This document shows positions 36,436-51,036 of a stretch of DNA of 64,000 nucleotides, one piece after another (the stretch's first letter is position 1; every line of letters starts with the position of its first letter). Origin of the DNA: Methanogenium marinum (GTDB taxonomy: Archaea > Halobacteriota > Methanomicrobia > Methanomicrobiales > Methanomicrobiaceae). Where the stretch lies: NCBI RefSeq assembly GCF_028912405.1, contig NZ_JAKELO010000002.1, forward strand, positions 1,807,276-1,871,275. Reading direction: 5' to 3'. Both the position numbers and the translations under genes were made by a program. The notes beneath the pieces are model-generated. The model made no database searches and was not told the DNA's origin. It saw nothing but the letters and a program-made list of their open reading frames with translations.

Positions 36436-37893
36436 TTATTCCTCTTTCAGGCTCTCGTATATCTCTCCGAACTGTTCGATTGCGGTCTGAAGGTTTTCTG
36501 CAATTTCGCCTGCGATAATATCGGGTTCCGGCAGGTTTTCCGTGTCTTCGAGGCTCTCGTCTTTTATCCAGAATATGTCAAGACTGACCTTGTCGCGTTT
36601 TATGAGGTCGGCGTATTGATATGGTTTAAACTGCTCAGTTTCCTTCCTCTCGTGGCGGTTTTCGGGGTTATAGCATTCGATGAAATTGGTGAGGTCATCG
36701 AGTGACAGGGGACTTTCCTTCAGTGTGAAGTGTTTGTTTGTTCTGAGGTCGTATATCCAGAGGGTGTCTGTCCAGGGCTCCTCGCGTCCTGCTTTTCGTT
36801 CAAAGAAGACAACGTTTGCCTTTACTCCCTGTGCGTAAAAGATTCCGGTGGGAAGTCTCAGAAGGGTGTGAACGTCGCATTCGGTGAGAAGCTTTCTTCT
36901 GATTGCTTCGCCCGCACCGCCTTCAAACAAGACATTGTCCGGCACAACGACGGCTGCTTTTCCGTTTATCTTTAACATGCTCCGTACATGCTGGAGGAAA
37001 TTGAGCTGCTTGTTTGATGTTGTCGCCCAGAAATCATCCCGCTCGTAGGTCTGTTTATCCTTCTCTGCCTTTCCGTCACCGTTTATGACGGTATAGCTGC
37101 TTTTCTTGCCAAAAGGTGGATTGGTGAGAACAAGGTCGTAGTGCTCTTTTGGTTCTGACAACAGTGAGTCTGCGACATTAACCGGGCTTTTATCCGTTCC
37201 GATGCCGTGCAGGTAGAGGTTCATTGCACAGAGGCGGGCGGCACTGTCGACAATCTCGGTTCCGTGGAATGTCTTCTCTTTTAGATATACGGACTGTTCC
37301 CGGTCGAGTTGGTAGTTTTTGACGAGGTAATCCCGTTCTGCAAGGAAGAATCCGCCTGTTCCGCATGCAGGGTCTGCAATGGTCTGGCAGGGTTTTGGGA
37401 CAGTTACTTCAACCATCGCCTGAATCAGCGCTCGTGGTGTGAAATACTGGCCCGCACCGCTTTTGGTATCCTCAGCATTCTTCTGGAGAAGACCTTCGTA
37501 TATCTCGCCTTTGACATCCATGTCAAGGCCGACCCAGGTCTCTTTTCCTATTAGTTCGACAAGTCGTCTGAGCTTTGCCGGGTCCTGTATCTTGTTCTGC
37601 GATTTTCTGAATATGACACCGAGGAGTCCGTGTTCTTTTCCGAGGGCTTCGAGGGTGTGGCGATAATGGATTTCAAGTGCATCCCCCTCTTTTGATGCGA
37701 GTTCTTCCCAGCTGTATTCATCCGGTATGGTTGATGGTTCGTTAAACGGCGGTTTTGTATGCTCGTCTGCCATTTTCAGGAAGAGAAGGTAGGTAAGCTG
37801 CTCGACGTAATCCCCGTAACTTACGCCGTCGTCTCTGAGTACGTTGCAGTAATTCCATAGTTTTTGTACGAGTGCTGAGGATTCGGATGCCAT
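36436..37893 (-). CDS. hsdM: Type I restriction-modification DNA methyltransferase subunit M
   Basis: GAGQYFTPRALIQAMV, IADPACGTGGFFLAE, VLTNPPFGKKSS. Confidence 0.97.
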   Translation of the reverse strand: MASESSALVQKLWNYCNVLRDDGVSYGDYVEQLTYLLFLKMADEHTKPPFNEPSTIPDEYSWEELASKEGDALEIHYRHTLEALGKEHGLLGVIFRKSQNKIQDPAKLRRLVELIGKETWVGLDMDVKGEIYEGLLQKNAEDTKSGAGQYFTPRALIQAMVEVTVPKPCQTIADPACGTGGFFLAERDYLVKNYQLDREQSVYLKEKTFHGTEIVDSAARLCAMNLYLHGIGTDKSPVNVADSLLSEPKEHYDLVLTNPPFGKKSSYTVINGDGKAEKDKQTYERDDFWATTSNKQLNFLQHVRSMLKINGKAAVVVPDNVLFEGGAGEAIRRKLLTECDVHTLLRLPTGIFYAQGVKANVVFFERKAGREEPWTDTLWIYDLRTNKHFTLKESPLSLDDLTNFIECYNPENRHERKETEQFKPYQYADLIKRDKVSLDIFWIKDESLEDTENLPEPDIIAGEIAENLQTAIEQFGEIYESLKEE

Positions 37894-39142: not shown

Positions 39143-39591
39143 CCTTTTTTGACCCTATTTTTTGGGGAATTGGGAGGCAAAATGGACGTATTTTCTGTTC
39201 TTTCTTTGTCCTGGAAAAAGACGGGTATAATGCCATTTTTTTGCAGAAAAGACGGTTTATTGCGAATTATAGTGCAGCCCATATTGATGGATATTTTTGG
39301 AGGATGTGCAGTTCCTCTCGACTGAGAACACATCTCTCCGTGCTTCTGTGTGGATGCGTTTTTCCACACTTTTTTACCTCTTTTATTGGATAATAGGGGG
39401 GCAAAATGGGCGTATTTTGTGTTCATTTAGGATGATGGAAAAATAATGGGTGGAATGCCATTTATTTGCAAAAAAGACGATTTATTGCGAACTATGGGGC
39501 GCCCCATATTGAGGGGTATTTTCAGAGGATGTGTAGGTCCTCTCGACTGAGAACGCATCTCTCCGGGCTTTTGTGTGGATGCGTTTTTTTG
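39143..39591 (+). repeat. Two-copy imperfect tandem repeat, period ~224 bp
   Basis: gcaaaatgg at 39177 and 39401; gtgtggatgcg at 39348 and 39573; last ~112 nt of the units differ at about 15 positions by hand alignment. Confidence 0.85.
39552..39590 (+). terminator. Hairpin plus T-run at the end of repeat copy B
   Basis: AACGCATC (39552-39559) / GATGCGTT (39578-39585) followed by a T tract; copy A has the same hairpin with one mismatch. Confidence 0.6.
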
Positions 39592-39652: not shown

Positions 39653-41095
39653 TTATGAGTGCCTCTTCTTCTGCTCCTTCAACTCTTTTTTTCTGGCCTT
39701 CTCCTCCGCTGCCCGCTGCTCCTTTTCAGCCTTAATCCTCTCCAGAAGAACGGATGCCGGTTCATCATCAGGATTCTGTGGCACAAGCCTCCCCTCAAAT
39801 GCCTTTTTCAGTACACTCTGCCGGAGTCGCTCTGCCTTTGCAAGCGAATCATTCACCGCCTTTTCCATCTCGTCGATGACCGAGAACCTTCGCTCAATTT
39901 CACAGACGATTTCGTGCTGTTCGGGGAGGGGGGGAAGTGGAAAGGATAAACCATTCAATTTTTTGAGATTGATGTTATATTGCCCGGCGGTAGTTGCGGC
40001 CATCTTTTCAATTTTATTCCTAATGTAATTACTATTCCAGATTAATCCCAACCAATGCCAGATTATTTCGTTATCGATTAATCGATATCTGATCAAATAT
40101 GATGCAAAATAATGAGGTGAATCAAAATTAGACATCACAATAGCAGATCTACCAATCAGATCCTTACTTCCATTTGTACGTATGATCAGTAAATCGCCTT
40201 TCTCTAATGCTTTAGAACTATCTAAATTTTCAGATGCAGGAGCATATTTTAATTTATCAAGGGAAATTTTATTTTTGTATATATTTGGTATTCTTAAAAT
40301 TGGATGCCCTTCCCAACTGCTATCACACTTTACAGAAGTACCATAACCTGAATCCCAAGCTAAATTTGCCAAATTTATCCATGTCCAACCCTCTGGAAGA
40401 GAGTAATCTGGTGAATTATATGTGGGTTCACTTGTTTTCCGATCCTGTGTTTTAATTTTCTCCACCAAAACCTCAGCACTCTCAATATCCGGATGCTCCG
40501 CCCGCCACTCCTCTGTCAGGTCGCCGCACATCGCCGCCTTTAAGACTGACTGCCGGTATTTGGGTATCAGTGCCTTTGCCTTTTTCAGGGCCGATACGCC
40601 TGCGTCAAGCCGGGTGAATTCCTCTTCGATCTTTTCCACGATGCGGTGTTGTTCGGGGAGAGGGGGAAGGGGAATTTTAACGGAATATGCATCATTTCGA
40701 TTTAATCCTGGAATTGCAGTAGACTTATCAAGAGAATTTAGATTTAATGAATGAAGCAAATAGTAAGAGAAAAGTAATGACAAATTTTTAGATTCCTCTA
40801 TGAAATATGTAGTATCTATTGGGTAAAACGGTTCTTTTGATATATGAACAGAGCCAGCTGTCCCCTTTCTACCTATAATTAATCCCGGTGAGTTTACTAT
40901 TGGGAGGTTATGGTGTCCTACAATACCATTTGAGCCATAAACTGGAATATCTCCAGTATCTACTCTTGATCTTTTTGGGAGTCCTTTTCCATAGTTTAGC
41001 TCCAATATTTCCCCAATACTTGTGACAATCCACCCATCAGGAAGCTCATACAATTCGGACTGTGATTCTTCTGTATTCTCTAAAAAGGTATTCAT
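39653..41095 (-). CDS. hsdS: Type I restriction-modification specificity subunit S
   Basis: Two TRD-like halves, each ending PLPPLPEQH(R/E)IV..IE..F; start taken at MNTFLENTEESQ. Confidence 0.95.
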   Translation of the reverse strand: MNTFLENTEESQSELYELPDGWIVTSIGEILELNYGKGLPKRSRVDTGDIPVYGSNGIVGHHNLPIVNSPGLIIGRKGTAGSVHISKEPFYPIDTTYFIEESKNLSLLFSYYLLHSLNLNSLDKSTAIPGLNRNDAYSVKIPLPPLPEQHRIVEKIEEEFTRLDAGVSALKKAKALIPKYRQSVLKAAMCGDLTEEWRAEHPDIESAEVLVEKIKTQDRKTSEPTYNSPDYSLPEGWTWINLANLAWDSGYGTSVKCDSSWEGHPILRIPNIYKNKISLDKLKYAPASENLDSSKALEKGDLLIIRTNGSKDLIGRSAIVMSNFDSPHYFASYLIRYRLIDNEIIWHWLGLIWNSNYIRNKIEKMAATTAGQYNINLKKLNGLSFPLPPLPEQHEIVCEIERRFSVIDEMEKAVNDSLAKAERLRQSVLKKAFEGRLVPQNPDDEPASVLLERIKAEKEQRAAEEKARKKELKEQKKRHS

Positions 41096-41126
41096 AGTTG
41101 TGATATGTCCGTCCTCTACTATTGGT

Positions 41127-42368
41127 TCACATAAAATCATTAAGGGTAACTTTTGGTGTCTCTTTTCGTGTTGAGACTCTCTCAAAATTCTTGAGGACCT
41201 TATCGGTTATGGATTTCTTTCCACCGAGATAATTCATCAGGGAATTGTCATACTGCATGGCATATTTCTGCCGTTCAAATTCCATATTCAGTTCAAATGA
41301 ATTCGCAAAGGTGGAATAGAACTTTGGCCGTCTGTTTAAATCGGGGACGGTGATTCCGTACCTGTCTAACAGGGTTGTTGTATCCGCATAGTCAGGGTAT
41401 TTGACATACTCATAGGTGGTATAATCAAAGAATCTGCCTTTGTGCTGAATGGTGACTTCTTTTGGAGGTGGAGTATAGTCAGTATTACCTCCCATCCATT
41501 TCCGTTGCGTATCTCTGTTTACTCCGACAATATCAAAACCAAGGGGGGTTGCAAGCACATCTGACGCCGCAGATGCTGAATCGCTCTTGTGGGGTTTTAC
41601 CTCACGCCTGATATTTGAACCGTATAAAATGACCTTATCATCAAGGCCCTGACGGGCAACCACACGGTGAAATCCTCGCAGTTGTGCAGTGACGGAAACT
41701 GATGATCTGCCTTCAAGATCAAACCAGAAATTCCGGAACCCTGAAGCAAGCATCTCTGTTACCAGTTCTTCAGAAGATTTTACACCATATCGTGTTGAAA
41801 CAGGGATAAATATTGGTTTTGAATTGCGGAATTTAAGGGAATCATACGCACAGCCAACATAATTTAGATAATCCCCGGTCTTTATTGCGACTTCAGATTT
41901 ACTGGTATCCTGATTATATTCTTTGACTTTCAGATTGGGAACAAACAAAATGTCACTTCTTCCGTGGTATATGTCAAGAAAATTGCTCAGGCTATCCTCA
42001 TAATCAGGAATGAGGCATGGGTTAAATGAAAATGTCAGGGTGTTGAGAATCAATTTGTCGGAAAGAACGGGAATTCTCTTGTAAGAATCATAATTGTCTG
42101 AAAGAAATGGAGCATCCGGCCGGTCAATTTCCTTCTCGAACGTATTTTTTTTAACATTCTGGCTTTTCTCAATAACTGGATTTTTATCAAGCCATCTTCT
42201 TTCGAGCGATCTAATGTCCCGTAATGAACCCAAATCATTGAAATCAAGTGTTTTGAAGGGAGTTTTCAGAGTATTGTGATTGAACCTGACGTCTTTGATG
42301 GTAAACTGTGTCGTGTCATCCGCTTCAAAATTGCGAATCTCAATACTGCTCATATCTCCTCCCCTCAA
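41127..42368 (-). CDS. Unknown 413-aa protein embedded in the R-M operon
   Basis: Intact ORF overlapping the PIN-like gene by 29 bp; central IFIPVSTRYGVKSSEELVTEMLASGFRNFWFDLEGRSS looks barrel-like but is not assignable by eye. Confidence 0.7.
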   Translation of the reverse strand: MRGGDMSSIEIRNFEADDTTQFTIKDVRFNHNTLKTPFKTLDFNDLGSLRDIRSLERRWLDKNPVIEKSQNVKKNTFEKEIDRPDAPFLSDNYDSYKRIPVLSDKLILNTLTFSFNPCLIPDYEDSLSNFLDIYHGRSDILFVPNLKVKEYNQDTSKSEVAIKTGDYLNYVGCAYDSLKFRNSKPIFIPVSTRYGVKSSEELVTEMLASGFRNFWFDLEGRSSVSVTAQLRGFHRVVARQGLDDKVILYGSNIRREVKPHKSDSASAASDVLATPLGFDIVGVNRDTQRKWMGGNTDYTPPPKEVTIQHKGRFFDYTTYEYVKYPDYADTTTLLDRYGITVPDLNRRPKFYSTFANSFELNMEFERQKYAMQYDNSLMNYLGGKKSITDKVLKNFERVSTRKETPKVTLNDFM

Positions 42369-42909
42369 TGTCCCGAACAGCAGAATCCAGAATTTTTTGG
42401 CTGATTCTGAACTTGCTTTTCCCTATACAGTTGAGTATGTTAATAGTAAATTCAGATGTAAGATAATTATTTGCCTCCAGATGAGCCATAAATCCAATTG
42501 TTCCTGTTAAATGATCTAACAAAACCGGCAGGAACAGTTTCACTTTTTTCCTGGCGGTCTCATCATCCAGAATGAACATAAAATCACCTGTCTTTGTTGT
42601 CTTGTGCACATAAGAGAGGGCGATGACCTCAAATTCACCCTGGTCAATTACCAGTCTGAGTGGTTCAAAAGGAAGTCCTCCCGATGCAAAATCATCAATG
42701 GAAACAACGGAAATCGAATCTGAAAAATTGTAACTTCTGTTCTTTAAACCCGCTTCATACTGGACATGCTCAGGGATTTCAACGCAAAATTCCCTGACAA
42801 CAAGAGAGAAAACACCAAAACGCTCCGGCTCGTCCATCAAGTCTTCAAGGTCATCAAAAAAGCAGATGAAAAAAGACGAATCAGGGATCAGTTTGGTTCT
42901 AATCCTCAA
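42340..42909 (-). CDS. PIN-domain-like nuclease (toxin-like)
   Basis: LIPDSSFFICFF, VQYEAG, DQGEFEVIALSYV, FILDDETARKK, LTGTIGFMAHLEANNYL follow PIN acidic-residue spacing. Confidence 0.7.
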   Translation of the reverse strand: MRIRTKLIPDSSFFICFFDDLEDLMDEPERFGVFSLVVREFCVEIPEHVQYEAGLKNRSYNFSDSISVVSIDDFASGGLPFEPLRLVIDQGEFEVIALSYVHKTTKTGDFMFILDDETARKKVKLFLPVLLDHLTGTIGFMAHLEANNYLTSEFTINILNCIGKSKFRISQKILDSAVRDIEGRRYEQY

Positions 42910-43435
42910 TCAGCTCCCGGTAACGTTTCTCCGTGATGACTCCCTTTTTCAGGAGTCGTCCTGCGAGATATTCCTTATTTTTAAGGAGACTGTCAATTTT
43001 ATCAGATTTTTCCGTGTAACCGTAGGTCTTGTACACCAGAAACATCAGTTCGTCGCTCGTGAGAGAATCATAGAGTGAACGAACAATATTCAAGCTGATG
43101 ATTATCTTTTCCCGATTTTCCTGAGTGAATTCTTGTATTGATTCTTCTGCGAGATTTTTTCCCTCTGCGGTCAGATAGATGCCCTTCGTGTCACTCACAA
43201 AATAATCATCATGATTGTCAATACTGTCCGCTGCACTACTGGAATATGGCCCGTAATAATGGGGGATGAATTCAAAAAATTCAAAAAATTTGGGAAATGA
43301 TTTTGAGAAGAGGAACAATTCTTTCTGGAAATTAATTTTATTTTTTATGGGTCTGTCTGCTCCGCTCAGAAGAATTGCAATGAATTTATTCCGTATTGCT
43401 TCCTCCTGTTCGAAGGAAAGATCTGAATCCGCCAT
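42899..43435 (-). CDS. Panacea/SocA-like (antitoxin-like) protein
   Basis: INFQKELFLFSKSF...FIPHYYGPYSSSAADSI...KGIYLTAEGKNLAEE resembles the KLQKLLYLA...YGPYS...YxLTxxG pattern; 11-bp overlap with the PIN-like gene. Confidence 0.55.
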   Translation of the reverse strand: MADSDLSFEQEEAIRNKFIAILLSGADRPIKNKINFQKELFLFSKSFPKFFEFFEFIPHYYGPYSSSAADSIDNHDDYFVSDTKGIYLTAEGKNLAEESIQEFTQENREKIIISLNIVRSLYDSLTSDELMFLVYKTYGYTEKSDKIDSLLKNKEYLAGRLLKKGVITEKRYRELIED

Positions 43436-43492
43436 AATTTACCAACTGTTTGTATGATGTACCTTAATATAATTGGCCGGGCGGACTGAAAG

Positions 43493-43669
43493 TTATGCCG
43501 ACAAAACCTCATTCAACTCCGTCATAATCCCATTCAGCCCGTCACCAAACGCCTGATACGCAGAAAAGAGCCCGCCTTTCTGCATCAGCAGCTGGTTGTA
43601 TTCAAAGTCATCCGGGCCGATGGAGACGCTTGCACCGATGTGGTCCTTTATGATGGTGAGCCACTTCAT
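43493..43669 (-). pseudogene. Second copy of the hsdR 3' end (58 codons plus stop), possibly an expressed mini-ORF
   Basis: MKWLTIIKDHIGASVSIGPDDFEYNQLLMQKGGLFSAYQAFGDGLNGIMTELNEVLSA* aligns without gaps to the HsdR C-terminus; about 26/177 nt and 8/58 aa differences by hand; ATG overlaps the NTPase TGA. Confidence 0.88.
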
Positions 43670-45984
43670 TGATTTTTTTCACGAAGCCCTTCAAATAGAT
43701 CTTGGATTCCAATTTCTTCTTCAAGATATTGATCCTGAAGATTTTGATATTTGTATTCATCTTCATCAGGTTCACTTTCACAATTATCATAATACCCATC
43801 GATAACTGAACTTATTTCACCCAATATTGAATCAATATCGATTTTAAAGAATTCAGCAATTGTTTCTATCTCTTCTTTAATATTTTCTAAGTCATTTATG
43901 TCTGAACCATTATGGTCATAGCAGTCATATTTTAAGTTGTACTCATAATATCTTGGTTCACGGTCCTCTTGATTAATTTCAATCTCTATTCCTCCTTCAA
44001 TAAATATATCCAAGTCTGAAATTAATTTATCCCAATCATTCCCTTGAATTTCAACGCCTGTTGCATTTGAAAATTCAACGATTTGGATATATTCAGATAA
44101 ATATGTAAATTCTTTAGAAAGGAGACGTTTTTTAATTGCAGAAACAAAATCATTCCAGCTTGAAAAGAAAATATTCTTATTCTCTGTTAAAATTGAAAGT
44201 AATGGATTAATTCTCCTGAAATAGAATTTATCCACTTCAACTTCTTTCAATAATATTTCAAGCAGGCAGTTAGTATATTCAATATATTTTTCTTCATTTA
44301 TTTGTCCACTCACAGATACTAGGTGGATTGTCAATTTGTCCAATTTTGCCGTATCCTTTTCGTCGATGTATTTATTTCCAATTCTTTTGTTCGCCTCAAA
44401 ATATTGTTCAATAAAATTTGGATACCTCTCTATTTGATCAACTTTATTTTGATTTTTAAAAACATTCCATATTTTTTCCAATTCTCTGATACCATTAATT
44501 AAATTACATAAATGGCACAAGAGAAGATCACTTTCAACAATTTTTTTGTTCATAAAATCTTCGACAGAAGGATTTTTGTATCCTATTTTAATATCTCCTG
44601 TCAGTACAGATTTTGTTAAAGTGATTAATGAGCCGTCTAACTCTTTTAAAGAAAGATCAAATTCTCTCTTTAGCTTGACTACATCTGTTTCATTATGGTA
44701 ATATTCATGATAGTATTCAAATACTGAATTTTTACTGGTATTGTTATCCAAAATCGTTAAAATGACTAAAATAGTCCGAGAGTAATCTGACAGAGAACTC
44801 GTGTATACCTTATTCCATATTTCTTCTGGGTTATCAAGGACAGATAAAAAAGTGTCTACAAAATCAGCACGATTTATTTCTGTTAAGTTTGTCATTGATT
44901 CAATTATTCTTGGATTAAAATTCCTGTGACTAATTATTTTCAGATAATTTTTATCTTCGATTATTTTGTTTATATTTTCGTCTTCAATTTCAGAATGCCA
45001 GAGATGATTGTATAATATTTGAGCTTTAATCTTCTTTTCGGCATCATTGAATGATATAATATGTTCAAAATGTCCAAATCTTTCAGCAACATCTGATTTT
45101 TGTTGCGCCTGATTCAAGACATAATCTCTTGTTGTAAGAATGAATATTGTATTGCCTTTAGAGCGTTTTACTGCCATTATAAATGATTCAATTGATTTTT
45201 CTTTATTATCACCAGGCCCTTCAGTGTAATAGGTAGAACCTAAAAAGTCATCATAGTAAAATATCTGTTTTTTATCTCGTTTAAGGAGACTATATGCATC
45301 TTTAAAATCTCCTGATATTTTTATTGGCTGATATCCATTTGCAGAGTACTTGATTACCAAACCCTTCATAAGGGTAGATTTACCTATGCCGGGTTGGCCG
45401 GAAATAATGCAGACATGTTCTTCCTTCAGAATTTCATCTACTTCATGGAATTCATCTGTTATAACCATTTTAGGCAAAAAGTCAATGAAATTTTCGATGT
45501 CAATATCTGTTTGATTGTAGATGGCTTTATTCAAAATAATTTCAAGGACGGTACTACTGGTAAACCACAATTTTGGGTGTTTTTTTACGATATCTTCATT
45601 TTCTCTGAGGAAATTGAGAATGTCTTCTCTTCCAAAAATATCTTGTTCATTTTGACAATATGACCCAAATATACCCTTTATTTCTGATTTGTCATTTGGA
45701 TTCAATTCAGTTGATGCTGCGATAATATATCTATTTGGACTAATTATCTCAACTTTTTTCACTTCTTTTTTCAGATGACTTTTTAGAGTACTGGCCGAAC
45801 TTTTAAAATAATGCTTGCATTGGATTATTGTTGTTCCGCTTTTGAAACATCCCCTGATATCTATTCCCTTATCACGACCTGACTTAAATGTCTCAAGAGT
45901 CGCATCCAACTTTTTTTGGAATATATCACAGATCAATAATTCAAATTCCTGTGGGGATAAGCATTCCAAATCATAATCGACCAT
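43666..45984 (-). CDS. Mrr-like endonuclease domain fused to a nSTAND3-like NTPase
   Basis: N-terminal LSPQEFELLICDIF...GRDKGIDIRG...TIIQCKHY (Mrr-type D..QxK); IISGQPGIGKSTLMKGL Walker A; KKQIFYYDDFLGSTYY; no TPR or WD40 repeats seen. Confidence 0.82.
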   Translation of the reverse strand: MVDYDLECLSPQEFELLICDIFQKKLDATLETFKSGRDKGIDIRGCFKSGTTIIQCKHYFKSSASTLKSHLKKEVKKVEIISPNRYIIAASTELNPNDKSEIKGIFGSYCQNEQDIFGREDILNFLRENEDIVKKHPKLWFTSSTVLEIILNKAIYNQTDIDIENFIDFLPKMVITDEFHEVDEILKEEHVCIISGQPGIGKSTLMKGLVIKYSANGYQPIKISGDFKDAYSLLKRDKKQIFYYDDFLGSTYYTEGPGDNKEKSIESFIMAVKRSKGNTIFILTTRDYVLNQAQQKSDVAERFGHFEHIISFNDAEKKIKAQILYNHLWHSEIEDENINKIIEDKNYLKIISHRNFNPRIIESMTNLTEINRADFVDTFLSVLDNPEEIWNKVYTSSLSDYSRTILVILTILDNNTSKNSVFEYYHEYYHNETDVVKLKREFDLSLKELDGSLITLTKSVLTGDIKIGYKNPSVEDFMNKKIVESDLLLCHLCNLINGIRELEKIWNVFKNQNKVDQIERYPNFIEQYFEANKRIGNKYIDEKDTAKLDKLTIHLVSVSGQINEEKYIEYTNCLLEILLKEVEVDKFYFRRINPLLSILTENKNIFFSSWNDFVSAIKKRLLSKEFTYLSEYIQIVEFSNATGVEIQGNDWDKLISDLDIFIEGGIEIEINQEDREPRYYEYNLKYDCYDHNGSDINDLENIKEEIETIAEFFKIDIDSILGEISSVIDGYYDNCESEPDEDEYKYQNLQDQYLEEEIGIQDLFEGLREKNQ

Positions 45985-48735
45985 TTATACCCCCAAAACT
46001 TCATTCAACTCTGCCATAATACCATTCAGACCATCCCCAAACGCCCGGTGTGCGGAAAACAGACCGCCCTTCTGCATCAGCCGCTGATTATACTCAAAGT
46101 CGTCCGGGCCGATGGAGACGCTTGCACCGATGTGGTCCTTCATGATGGTGAGCCATTCCATCTGTTCCCGGCTGAAGGTGATGCCGTCCTCCTCGCGTTC
46201 GGCTATCCACCGCTCAAACCGGTGGTCGACCGTCTCTCTGTATGGTTCCAGGTAATCGTCGCATCCGAGCGAAAACCGGACGAGGGAGATGATGTCCGTT
46301 AACATCCGGTGCGGAGATGCACCCCGGACGTGGTTTCGTTCCACCTGCTCATATGCCTGCCAGACCTTGTCCGGGGTAAACCCGTACGGGGGCTTTGCGA
46401 GAATATCCGAGAGCTCTCGTATCTGTTCATACGTCAGGTGCCGCTCCCGTTTTGGGCGGCTGTATATAATTTGAAGAGCCGTTATCGAGTCCTTGTTCTC
46501 CTCGATAAACTGCCTGAAGTTTGCAACCGTAAGAACGGCCCGCTCCTTTGCATCCGTTGAAAAACCAGCCTCAATCACCCTGTCCTCGCTCACCTTGTCC
46601 AACACCTGCTCTGACTGTGTCTTTAAATCAAGCAGCAGGGTTCTGAACTTCGGGCTGTCAAACGGTTCACATGCGGTTGAAACAAGAGACTCTTTTGCCT
46701 CTTTTATCTGGGATGCATCCGGTGTTTCTGTTGCAAACAGCTCCGTTGCATGTTCCCGTGCCTCATCGGGGTCAACGGATGTGTAGAGAGTTTTAATAAT
46801 CTCAACAAACGGTGTCCCCGCCGTATCAGAAATTTCCTCACGTTCCCGGTCGCCAATCCGCCGGTCAAGCCTCGCAAGTCGTGTTGCAAGTGTTGTTATC
46901 GTAGCATTGTCATGATTTCCAACCGCAACCGATTCAAGGAGTTTTTTAAACGAAACGGAGGGCTTCTTGTCGATGACCACCTGCGGATTTTTCGATGATT
47001 CACAGACGCCCACCGCATCGACCACAATAAACCGGTCTTTCGCCGGTGCATCTGTTGTCACCTGGTGCAGGTCAGTGATATCAACCGTTCGTGTACCCCG
47101 GCCAAGCATCTGCTCGAAATAGACCTGCGATTTCACATCCCGCATAAAAATCAGGCATTCGAGCGGTTTGATATCAACGCCGGTTGACACCATATCAACG
47201 GTCACCGCAATTCTTGGATTATAGGAGGACCGGAACTCCCGGATCATATCCTCCGGTTTTCTGCCGGTCCGGTAGGTAATCTTCTTGCAGAAGTCATTCC
47301 CACGCCCAAACTCCTCCCTGATAATCTCGACAATATCTTCAGCGTGCGAATCGCTCTTTGCAAAAATAAGTGTCTTTGGAACCTCGCTTCTTCCGGGAAA
47401 GAGCGATGTAAAGAGATGCTCCTTAAACGTCCGGATGACTGTTCTGATCTGATCATATGAGACGACATTGCGGTCAAGTTGTCTCTGGGTGTATGTGAAC
47501 TCTTCATCTAAAAGTTCCCATCTCCGGTCCCGTGAAAGCTTCTCTCTTTTCTCAACCCAGAAGTCAGCATCCACCGTGCTTCCACCTTTGGTTATCTCTG
47601 TTACAATCCGGAATACGTCAAATCCGACATTGACACCGTCTGCAACCGCTCTGTCAGAACCATACTCCATCACCAGATTCTTGTTAAAAAACCCAAGCGT
47701 CTGCTTGGAGGGCGTTGCAGTAAGGCCGATCAGATGTGCATCGAAATACTCCAGCACCTGACTCCAGAGATTGTAAATTGAACGGTGGCACTCATCGGTC
47801 ACAATAAAATCAAAGGTTTCAATCGGAATATCGGGATTATAGACGACATCCTTTGGCTTTGCATTTGGCACCCCATCCTCAAACGATGAGAATTCATCTG
47901 ATTCTGGATCATAATCCTCATCGCCTTTTAATATGGAATACAGCCTCTGAATCGTGCTGATGCAAACCTTTCCCACCGGATCTATTTTCTGACCCGAAAG
48001 GTGCTGCACATTATAGAGTTCGGTAAATTTTCGCCCGTCATCAGGTGTGACATACATCTGAAATTCCTTGTATGTCTGCACACCGAGACTGGTTCTGTCC
48101 ACCAGAAACAGGACACGTTTTGCGTTGCAGTGCTTAATCAGACGGTAAATAAATGAGACCGCAGTGAATGTCTTTCCCGAGCCGGTCGCCATCTGTATCA
48201 GAGAGCGGGGATGATCCTCTGCAAACGAATGTTCAAGGTTGGTAACAGCTTCTATCTGGCATTCGCGAAGACCTGTTGTGACAAGAGGGGGATACTCCTG
48301 CATCCGTGCACGAAGTGTCTTCTCCTGCTTCATCCGTTCAGAAAATGTCTCCGGTCTGAGAAATGAAAATACTCTTCGGGAACGGGGCTCCGGGTCACGC
48401 AAATCCCTGAAATATGTCTCTTTTCCCGTGCTTTCGTATCCAAACGGAAGATATCCAAGTTCATTCGGAATGTTTGTGAGCTTCCCAGTGAGATATCCGT
48501 CTGACTGTTCACAGACGCCGCTCAGGGTCGTTCCCTCTTTTTTTGCCTCGATAACACCGACAGCCTTTCTGTCAACAAAGAGAAGGTAATCCGCATACCC
48601 TTCGGTGAGTGGGTATTCCCGGACTGCAACGCCTGCTCCTGCACCGAGGTTCAACTCATCCCTGTCCTGGATTACCCACCCCGCAGCAAGGAGCATCCCG
48701 TCAATGGTAATTCTTGCTTTTCCCTCTGGTGTCAC
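45985..48735 (-). CDS. hsdR: Type I restriction enzyme subunit R
   Basis: GVIEAKKEG, MATGSGKTFTAVSFIYRLI, VTDECHRSIYNLW, GLTATPSKQT. Confidence 0.96.
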   Translation of the reverse strand: MTPEGKARITIDGMLLAAGWVIQDRDELNLGAGAGVAVREYPLTEGYADYLLFVDRKAVGVIEAKKEGTTLSGVCEQSDGYLTGKLTNIPNELGYLPFGYESTGKETYFRDLRDPEPRSRRVFSFLRPETFSERMKQEKTLRARMQEYPPLVTTGLRECQIEAVTNLEHSFAEDHPRSLIQMATGSGKTFTAVSFIYRLIKHCNAKRVLFLVDRTSLGVQTYKEFQMYVTPDDGRKFTELYNVQHLSGQKIDPVGKVCISTIQRLYSILKGDEDYDPESDEFSSFEDGVPNAKPKDVVYNPDIPIETFDFIVTDECHRSIYNLWSQVLEYFDAHLIGLTATPSKQTLGFFNKNLVMEYGSDRAVADGVNVGFDVFRIVTEITKGGSTVDADFWVEKREKLSRDRRWELLDEEFTYTQRQLDRNVVSYDQIRTVIRTFKEHLFTSLFPGRSEVPKTLIFAKSDSHAEDIVEIIREEFGRGNDFCKKITYRTGRKPEDMIREFRSSYNPRIAVTVDMVSTGVDIKPLECLIFMRDVKSQVYFEQMLGRGTRTVDITDLHQVTTDAPAKDRFIVVDAVGVCESSKNPQVVIDKKPSVSFKKLLESVAVGNHDNATITTLATRLARLDRRIGDREREEISDTAGTPFVEIIKTLYTSVDPDEAREHATELFATETPDASQIKEAKESLVSTACEPFDSPKFRTLLLDLKTQSEQVLDKVSEDRVIEAGFSTDAKERAVLTVANFRQFIEENKDSITALQIIYSRPKRERHLTYEQIRELSDILAKPPYGFTPDKVWQAYEQVERNHVRGASPHRMLTDIISLVRFSLGCDDYLEPYRETVDHRFERWIAEREEDGITFSREQMEWLTIMKDHIGASVSIGPDDFEYNQRLMQKGGLFSAHRAFGDGLNGIMAELNEVLGV

Positions 48736-48925: not shown

Positions 48926-50626
48926 TCACCACAAAACCAAAATCCTTCCATCCGTCTCCGGGGAAATAGGAGAATTCTCTTCAATATCACCCGCAACAAG
49001 GTCTATCAGATTAATCTCGGTGGCAAATTTTCTCTCATCTGAAATAGCTTCAAGATTCGTATACCCGTCGCCACCGCCTGCAATGTAGTCATTTACTGCA
49101 ACAGTGTAGGTCGTATCCATCCCTATTGGCACCACGTCGCCGGACTCTGTTACAACCGAAAGGTCCTCGATCCGTTCTCCCGCAGAGTTTACCGTGTTGG
49201 TATCATAGTCGATGCAGAACGTTTCCGCCTTTGTATTGATAGTAAACCGCACACCCGAAACCTGCAAAAATCCTCCCGAAGGCGCCCGATTTTCCCCTGG
49301 GCATCCATCGCCCGTTACAACCAGTGCTGACGCAGACCGTTCAAGCGTCTCTTTGATTTCACTGCCGGTCATCTGAACCGTTACAATCAGATTCTCGTAG
49401 GGGAACATCTCGTTTAACGTCAGATATGATATCTCTCCTGCAGGAATGATGCAGTCACCACGTATTGTCCCTGAATTGATAAGAGCAATATCAACACCGG
49501 GCACGTTCTCACGGACCGTATCCATGGTGAAATCTCCCGCATTTGTCTCCCCTGTTCGCAGTGTCTTCTTTTGGACGTCAAGAGGGACGGTCGTAGAGCC
49601 GATTCCTTCTGACAGGCTTTCGGTATATTTCTCGTAATAGGGGGTGACAAATGATGTTATCTCTTCATCATCCGGCATATCCTCAGTGATTTCATATCGT
49701 TCAATGGCCGTCCCGATAACAACGCCGTTAAACATGGTGATATCAACAGTATCAGTCTCTTCGCCGTATTTTCCTGCATGAACAATGAGCGTATCCGTAC
49801 CGTCACCGGCGGTTACCGTTTCATTCCAGACGAGATGGTCGTGGCCACCTATGATAAGGTCAATGCCCGGAACAGACTGTGCAAGGGAAATATCCTCATC
49901 TCTGTCCTGATGGGTGAGTGCGATGATAATATCCGCACCCTCTTCTTTCAGGGATGTTACTGCCGAATTACCGATTTCAGCCGTGTTGTCGTATAATATG
50001 ACATCTTCACCAAGGGGCACAATCTTTTCAAGCTGGGGAGTGATAATCCCGAATATTCCTACCTTTGCCCCACCGGCGTCAAGGATTATGTAGTCTTTTA
50101 CCGTGTCATTCAATCCGGTGTCTGCGAAATCAAGGTTTGCGCAGATAACGGGATAGGATGCGTTTGTCGCCCACTCCTCAAACAGTCCCGTTGAAAAATC
50201 AAATGCATGGTTTCCGGGCACGGCTACGTCAAATCCTGCCATCGAATATGCGGTAACCTCCGGGATTCCGGCATACGTGTGATAGAAACTCCCTTCACCG
50301 AGATCGCCTGCAAACAGATACAGGGTGGTATCCTTTTCCTCACCAAGCGTTTCTGCGAGTGCACCGATTCTTCCTATGCGTGTTCCGGTATCGGTGTCAC
50401 TCATGCCAAACAGGTGACTGTGAATATCAGGTGTCGTTAAAATTCTGATCGTCCCTGAATAGGGTGAATCGTTTTGTTCTCCTAAATCCGTGCTGTTACC
50501 TGTGTGCATTCCTCCCAAAATGCCACTTCCAATACCTGTAGAAAGAATGGCTAAGAGGAGTATCGCAATCACCACACATGAAAGGATTATTGCCTGAATA
50601 TACCATATTACGGATGATCTCTGCAT
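48926..50626 (-). CDS. Membrane-anchored 5'-nucleotidase/UshA-like metallophosphatase
   Basis: RILTTPDIHSHLFG, VPGNHAFDF, LIIGGHDHLVW, LINSGTIRGDCIIPAGEI; start at MQRSSVIWYI. Confidence 0.9.
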   Translation of the reverse strand: MQRSSVIWYIQAIILSCVVIAILLLAILSTGIGSGILGGMHTGNSTDLGEQNDSPYSGTIRILTTPDIHSHLFGMSDTDTGTRIGRIGALAETLGEEKDTTLYLFAGDLGEGSFYHTYAGIPEVTAYSMAGFDVAVPGNHAFDFSTGLFEEWATNASYPVICANLDFADTGLNDTVKDYIILDAGGAKVGIFGIITPQLEKIVPLGEDVILYDNTAEIGNSAVTSLKEEGADIIIALTHQDRDEDISLAQSVPGIDLIIGGHDHLVWNETVTAGDGTDTLIVHAGKYGEETDTVDITMFNGVVIGTAIERYEITEDMPDDEEITSFVTPYYEKYTESLSEGIGSTTVPLDVQKKTLRTGETNAGDFTMDTVRENVPGVDIALINSGTIRGDCIIPAGEISYLTLNEMFPYENLIVTVQMTGSEIKETLERSASALVVTGDGCPGENRAPSGGFLQVSGVRFTINTKAETFCIDYDTNTVNSAGERIEDLSVVTESGDVVPIGMDTTYTVAVNDYIAGGGDGYTNLEAISDERKFATEINLIDLVAGDIEENSPISPETDGRILVLW

Positions 50627-51036
50627 TTTTATCTCACCTAAATAGTACGTTGCCTGATTGTCAATCTGAAATCTACCGGTGACCTCTTCACCTGACGCCG
50701 GATGGGACGGTGATCCGGATAACAATAATTCTGCACGTATTTCAAAGATGTTTGGGGTGAAGAGTTAAAATAATCAGTTAAATGTATAGAGCTTTTTTTT
50801 ATGGTGTGGCAGTACCTGTTTTTTCAGGCAGGTGAATTTGTCCCTGAAGATATTTTATCCGATATCCGCAAAGGGGGAGCCCAATTCTGTTTTTTGTTCC
50901 AATTCTGGATTTATTCAAAAGTATGTTACTTGTTTGAGGCTTTATCTACCATCCCTTTCTCAAATGGCCTTATATGTGGCTTTTGTTCCTTGTTGCCGGG
51001 CGATAGGTATTATATACGAAAATGGTATCTTAGACC

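Follow-up and report, generated by a model that had tools for sequence, protein, structure and literature searches.

Stranded hsdR 3' ends suggest one way in which defence genes enter type I restriction operons

In a type I restriction-modification (RM) locus of Methanogenium marinum, the last 58 codons of hsdR are found twice, once as the end of the gene itself and once behind the NTPase gene that follows it. Our results indicated that this arrangement probably arose when two versions of the locus were joined, at one junction through homology in hsdR and at the other non-homologously. Four observations underlie this reading: both parental arrangements exist in relatives, the breakpoint between them can be placed, constraint on the second tail is relaxed, and the pattern recurs in other phyla, where two instances have a close comparator. 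The pathway would have been homology-facilitated illegitimate recombination (HFIR) or the repair of a break with homology on one side.

A second hsdR 3' end in the Methanogenium locus

The window, the whole stretch of 64,000 nucleotides analysed here, contains HsdR (EcoEI-type), HsdM and HsdS together (Pfam, PADLOC), and the genes lie on the minus strand in the order flank gene, hsdR, cargo, hsdS and hsdM. The flank gene (48926..50725, minus strand) encodes a 5'-nucleotidase/phosphodiesterase-like protein and is syntenic in G013, G009, G017 and G019 (tblastn with the window proteins), indicating that the RM locus occupies the same chromosomal place in these genomes. HsdR (45985..48735, minus strand) is a 916-aa protein with ResIII and EcoEI_R_C domains (Pfam), and its orthologues share 95% aa identity in G013, 93% in G009 and 84% in G017 and G019. 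The last 58 codons (45985..46161, minus strand; tail 1), which form the functional hsdR 3' end, are the direct repeat D1.

The sequence-only reading had placed an nSTAND-like NTPase gene at the hsdR stop codon with a gap of 0 bp. Indeed, its ATG lies at the base directly after the hsdR TAA (45985), and the 772-aa product (43666..45984, minus strand), an Mrr-type nuclease plus NTPase, matches Mrr_cat (2e-6) and nSTAND3 (1.3e-46) in Pfam, with PF20720 and PF04471 above cut-off, which bears out that identity. By eye, the motifs GID..QCK and Walker A GQPGIGKST are intact. Moreover, the protein matches the PADLOC candidate PDC-S73 (PDLC05079) over its full length (1-765, 1.1e-148), and NTPases of this type are rare in the phylum of the host (3/394 genomes). 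From its sequence, the Mrr-nSTAND3 NTPase is suspected to be a candidate defence protein, the defence role of PDC-S73 being itself a prediction.

The NTPase TGA (43668-43666) overlaps the ATG (43669-43667) of a 58-codon ORF (43493..43669, minus strand; tail 2), the two codons sharing ATGA. As read earlier from the letters, these 177 nt resemble 45985-46161, with 85.1% ungapped nt identity over 58 codons and 50/58 identical aa; in addition, the ORF alone matches the C-terminal end of the Pfam EcoEI_R_C model (E 8.9e-9). The two tails differ at codon positions 1/2/3 by 4/4/18 nt (pN/pS 0.15). The earlier statement that most changes are synonymous holds for this pair, but not for the changes private to tail 2: in a set of tail 1, tail 2 and the tails of G013 and G009, tail 2 has private changes of 7 N:4 S, against 3 N:20 S for the remaining three (Fisher p 0.005). 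These include R27L, at a position conserved in all relatives compared. Such mostly amino-acid-changing private substitutions indicate that hsdR-like constraint has been lost and that the fragment is decaying. The description of the tails as diverged alleles is right in that they are not a recent exact duplication, but tail 2 is no intact allele; by its substitution pattern it appears to be a remnant under relaxed constraint and not a second functional hsdR end. Synonymous differences number 9 for any pair among tail 2, G013 and G009 and 16-17 from tail 1 to each of them, and tail 1 is the outlier among the tails (95th percentile of windows). These counts only suggest that tail 1 is the foreign one of the two tails in the window.

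Two versions of the locus in relatives

In seven loci of the Methanomicrobiaceae, the family of the window genome, the gap between hsdR and hsdS holds different genes: the NTPase in G013 and G024, a three-gene module in G009, a SIR2-like gene in G019, a 616-aa gene in G017, nothing in G003, and the NTPase, a tail and the three-gene module in the window. G013 (L011), the 95% hsdR match, is labelled Methanogenium; it and G024, which belongs to another genus, have hsdR-NTPase-hsdS with one tail. G013 runs from the NTPase to hsdS without a second tail, and in G024 the NTPase lies immediately before hsdS. The order in G009 is hsdR, a 57-nt spacer, three other genes and hsdS, and the NTPase is absent. 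In the window, tail 2 is followed on the minus strand by this spacer (43436..43492; 52/57 identical in G009, absent from G013) and three further genes of the same haplotype B. They encode a 178-aa PDC-M19A-like protein by PADLOC (42899..43435; 89% aa identity in G009, absent from the G013 locus), a 189-aa PDC-S70-like protein (42340..42909; PADLOC, tblastn) and a 413-aa protein of no family (41127..42368; Pfam, tblastn). hsdS (39653..41185, minus strand; Pfam) and hsdM (36436..37893, minus strand; Pfam) come next.

The 413-aa protein is kept in G009 together with its PDC-M19A-like and PDC-S70-like partners, and the three genes are a possible undescribed module. The region between hsdS and a nucleotidyltransferase gene (39146-39588) contains two ~225-nt imperfect tandem repeats, which G013 has too.

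By blastn, the window aligns collinearly with G013 (86%) over 50817 to 43665, the NTPase region included, and next with G009 (86.5%) over 43669 to 41021. The breakpoint joins the NTPase stop to hsdR codon 859, with ~2 nt (AT) common to both sides. Since the window follows G013 up to the NTPase stop and G009 thereafter, and G013 lacks a second tail, two haplotypes appear to be joined at the NTPase stop. No sharp mosaic boundary was found within the window hsdR by blastn against G013 and G009. All these comparisons are with other species, none of them conspecific, and the close pairs described below are separate species too.

The empty site looked for in relatives is present in G009 (L092), which ends in a tail of the 43493-43669 type followed by the same spacer. 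Excision of the NTPase as a cassette via the 177-bp repeats, raised earlier as a possibility, is not supported by these loci: G013 and G024 have the NTPase without a second tail, and the G009 tail, at 19 nt from tail 1 and 17 nt from tail 2 but 10 nt from the G013 tail, is not the product of recombination between tails 1 and 2. The same tail makes it quite unlikely that the four-part arrangement is ancestral, with G009 having lost the NTPase by recombination between tails and G013 and G024 having lost the other module. Direct repeats could allow such a loss, but the NTPase already stands directly before hsdS in another genus (G024), and tail 2 would still need a separate origin.

Second hsdR ends at other loci

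For the survey, 10 kb on each side of every HsdR locus was queried with each 100-aa piece of its own HsdR. The sequence-only reading had suggested a search for other genes at the hsdR 3' end with the same tail repeats, and such genes were found: a second hsdR 3' end follows hsdR in the same orientation in 13 of the 78 loci that had 1 kb or more of downstream sequence (11 at E<1e-3; L062 and L079 by alignment) and in 2/35 further archaeal loci (L159, L161). Only two matches came from HsdR pieces other than the C-terminal one, among them the internally deleted L089 hsdR, and upstream almost nothing was found. Similar tail copies were found for only ~6 non-hsdR genes of 801 ORFs in the same loci (Fisher 5e-10, counted post hoc). 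Twelve events were taken as clean cases of hsdR, cargo and tail; L050, L089 and L161 were left out, and L062 and L079 may share an origin. Genes are present between hsdR and hsdS in 67/114 loci. The cargos are varied small modules, toxin-antitoxin pairs among them, and include nucleotidyltransferase/HepT or HEPN pairs, YhcG nucleases, a PIN toxin, GxxExxY (PDDEXK_3), S23, a REP transposase, a TPR protein and a HATPase_c_4/RecG-C-like protein. They have no common recombinase, and the displaced tails are 14-58 codons long.

In L054 (19184-20678), the last 27 codons of hsdM are copied ~1.9 kb downstream (89% aa identity), so the scar is not restricted to hsdR. In L089 (14983-15199), the second hsdR copy consists of the N-terminus fused to its own C-terminal tail. 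An internally deleted second copy of this kind would fit a history in which hsdR was first duplicated in tandem over its full length, after which the second copy lost most of its sequence and the NTPase was inserted. For the window this is very improbable, given that no other hsdR piece lies near its tail and that the members of most tail pairs differ at third positions, as diverged alleles, and are not exact copies.

Each of the 12 clean cases lies in an uncultured or unnamed assembly, and nearly all positives are metagenome assemblies; the isolates in the set, 3 plasmid loci (isolates) and ~30 viral contigs yielded none. These sources are what an assembly artefact fusing two strain haplotypes would lead one to expect, but cargo end and tail start have no long common k-mer for an assembler to cross. 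Moreover, the second tails are decayed in L016, L069 and L070 as in the window, and hence are not live hsdR ends of a coexisting strain; an artefact is extremely unlikely.

Two close comparators bear on which end is foreign. L040 is an empty site, its hsdR being followed directly by hsdS, which it overlaps by 4 nt. The hsdR of L041 is ~94% identical to that of L040 in nt, but its last ~45 nt are foreign and hold the ATG of the YhcG cargo, and the tail behind this cargo is 92.6% identical to the L040 hsdR end. Between L065 and L062, hsdR is nearly 100% identical over much of its body and diverges abruptly 35 codons before the L065 stop. Tail 2 of L065 starts exactly at the divergence codon, with the insertion at one point within ~3 nt, and is 91% identical to the L079 tail and 66% to its own tail 1; L062 is here a carrier of its own insert and no empty-site comparator. 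Judged by these alignments, the insert in L041 and L065 carried a replacement hsdR end and the native end was displaced downstream. The earlier idea of a cassette bringing a replacement hsdR 3' end is thus borne out in these pairs from unrelated phyla as regards the replacement end, but not as regards a dedicated cassette.

A true mobile cassette, in which cargo and hsdR tail move as a unit (circular or linear), enter hsdR tails and excise via the repeats, would suit these replacement ends, the many unrelated cargos in one architecture and the existence of the repeats. It is nevertheless unlikely, because the varying tail lengths (14-58 codons) imply no fixed site, no recombinase is shared, and the NTPase occurs without tail 2 in G013 and G024. 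Furthermore, if a circle had entered by a single crossover, tail 2 would begin with donor sequence, but tail 2 of L065 is native from its first codon.

In L062 (6482-7190) and L079 (12770-13453), the GxxExxY (PDDEXK_3) gene and the inverted repeats TGTCTGAACC / GGTTCAGACA that bound it sit precisely in the gap from the hsdR stop to the tail copy, and resemble a small mobile unit that lacks a transposase. Behind hsdR in L065 (12764-13487) is a REP-associated tyrosine transposase gene with REP-like AAAGATGACATCTTT palindromes on both sides. Terminal inverted repeats, sought at all insert ends, were found only in these three loci (as REP-like pairs in L065). The window and most inserts have none, and transposition was rejected as the general cause. 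Target-site duplication was likewise rejected as the general cause, since most tail pairs are old diverged alleles and tail 2 of L065 matches the hsdR of another clade; the short tails of L079 are nearly identical and could have arisen in this way.

Proposed origin, known systems and significance

In the preferred reading, the joining of two locus versions, the hsdR-hsdS interval would be a turnover site for small defence modules. Version A would have had hsdR coupled directly to the Mrr-nSTAND3 NTPase, and version B hsdR, the spacer, the three-gene module and hsdS. A non-homologous join between the NTPase stop and hsdR codon 859 would have left the last 58 hsdR codons of B stranded behind the NTPase, where the tail, no longer completing HsdR, would decay but persist as a short frame that is coupled to the stop of the NTPase gene. 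The recombinants that survive would be the ones with an intact hsdR and continued translation of the genes behind it, and deletions extending downstream would take out hsdS and not survive. Homologous entry in hsdR and non-homologous exit would account for the coupled hsdR/cargo start, the variable tail lengths and the diverged tails. Homologous recombination may remove longer repeats, which would explain the ceiling of about 60 codons.

Elements that integrate into the 3' ends of genes or tRNAs restore the end of the target gene. The hsdR events likewise have a complete host 3' end and a displaced original end, but, unlike such elements, they have no integrase and no constant core site, and neither a fixed target site (tails of 14-58 codons) nor a shared recombinase was found among the cargos. 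With HFIR they have in common one homologous end, one non-homologous join and the gain of foreign genes; both junction types were found in L041/L040 and L065/L062, and the window is consistent with them against G013 and G009. Published HFIR products usually combine deletions of ~1 kb with a microhomology of 3-10 bp (PMC3240628). HFIR deletes recipient DNA, whereas the hsdR events retain it together with a piece of the interrupted gene: only ~2 nt are shared at the window join, and no recipient sequence was lost in L065. The likeness to HFIR is therefore one of principle and not of the full signature.

Small toxin or defence modules between hsd genes are also known from DarTG2, which sits between hsdS and hsdR in EPEC, in a gap called a potential recombination hotspot (PMC12255303), and from prrC, which lies in EcoprrI, a type I RM operon (PMC12707154, review). 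The passages of these accounts concerned with DarTG2 and prrC describe neither stranded hsd ends nor an entry route; in the window, by contrast, hsdR is the first of the hsd genes and a duplicate of its 3' end remains as a scar. The literature searched, which lay outside subscription journals, yielded no account of a duplicated hsdR end.

Coupling of hsdM and hsdS is documented for EcoKI (PMC3510504), and hsdR and the next gene overlap by NTGA in 26/40 loci without cargo. The start of the tail frame overlaps the cargo stop in 6/12 events, with ATG in the window, L041, L044, L069 and L159 and TTG in L060, against a random-frame expectation of 12% (binomial p 0.0014; post hoc, small sample). The tail stop overlaps the start codon of the next gene in several loci (L016, L041, L044, L060). 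The tail may act as a translation bridge to the following gene; the 57 nt that separate it from that gene in the window weaken the argument there. More tentatively, hsdR 3' ends could be a recombinase-free acquisition site, at which small toxin and defence modules pass from one restriction locus to another with a replacement end and the displaced end is kept as an in-frame bridge coupling the next gene, usually hsdS.

The clustering of defence genes in restriction operons is known, and their entry route is mostly traceless. Stranded hsdR ends are directional scars that can be searched for automatically, and a close comparator separates the cargo-borne end from the host end. Similar leftovers in unrelated microbes suggest that this is one way in which defence genes enter restriction operons. 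If the bridge is real, it would provide a rule for adding genes to a dangerous operon, in which the nuclease comes before the specificity subunit, without disturbing its balance.
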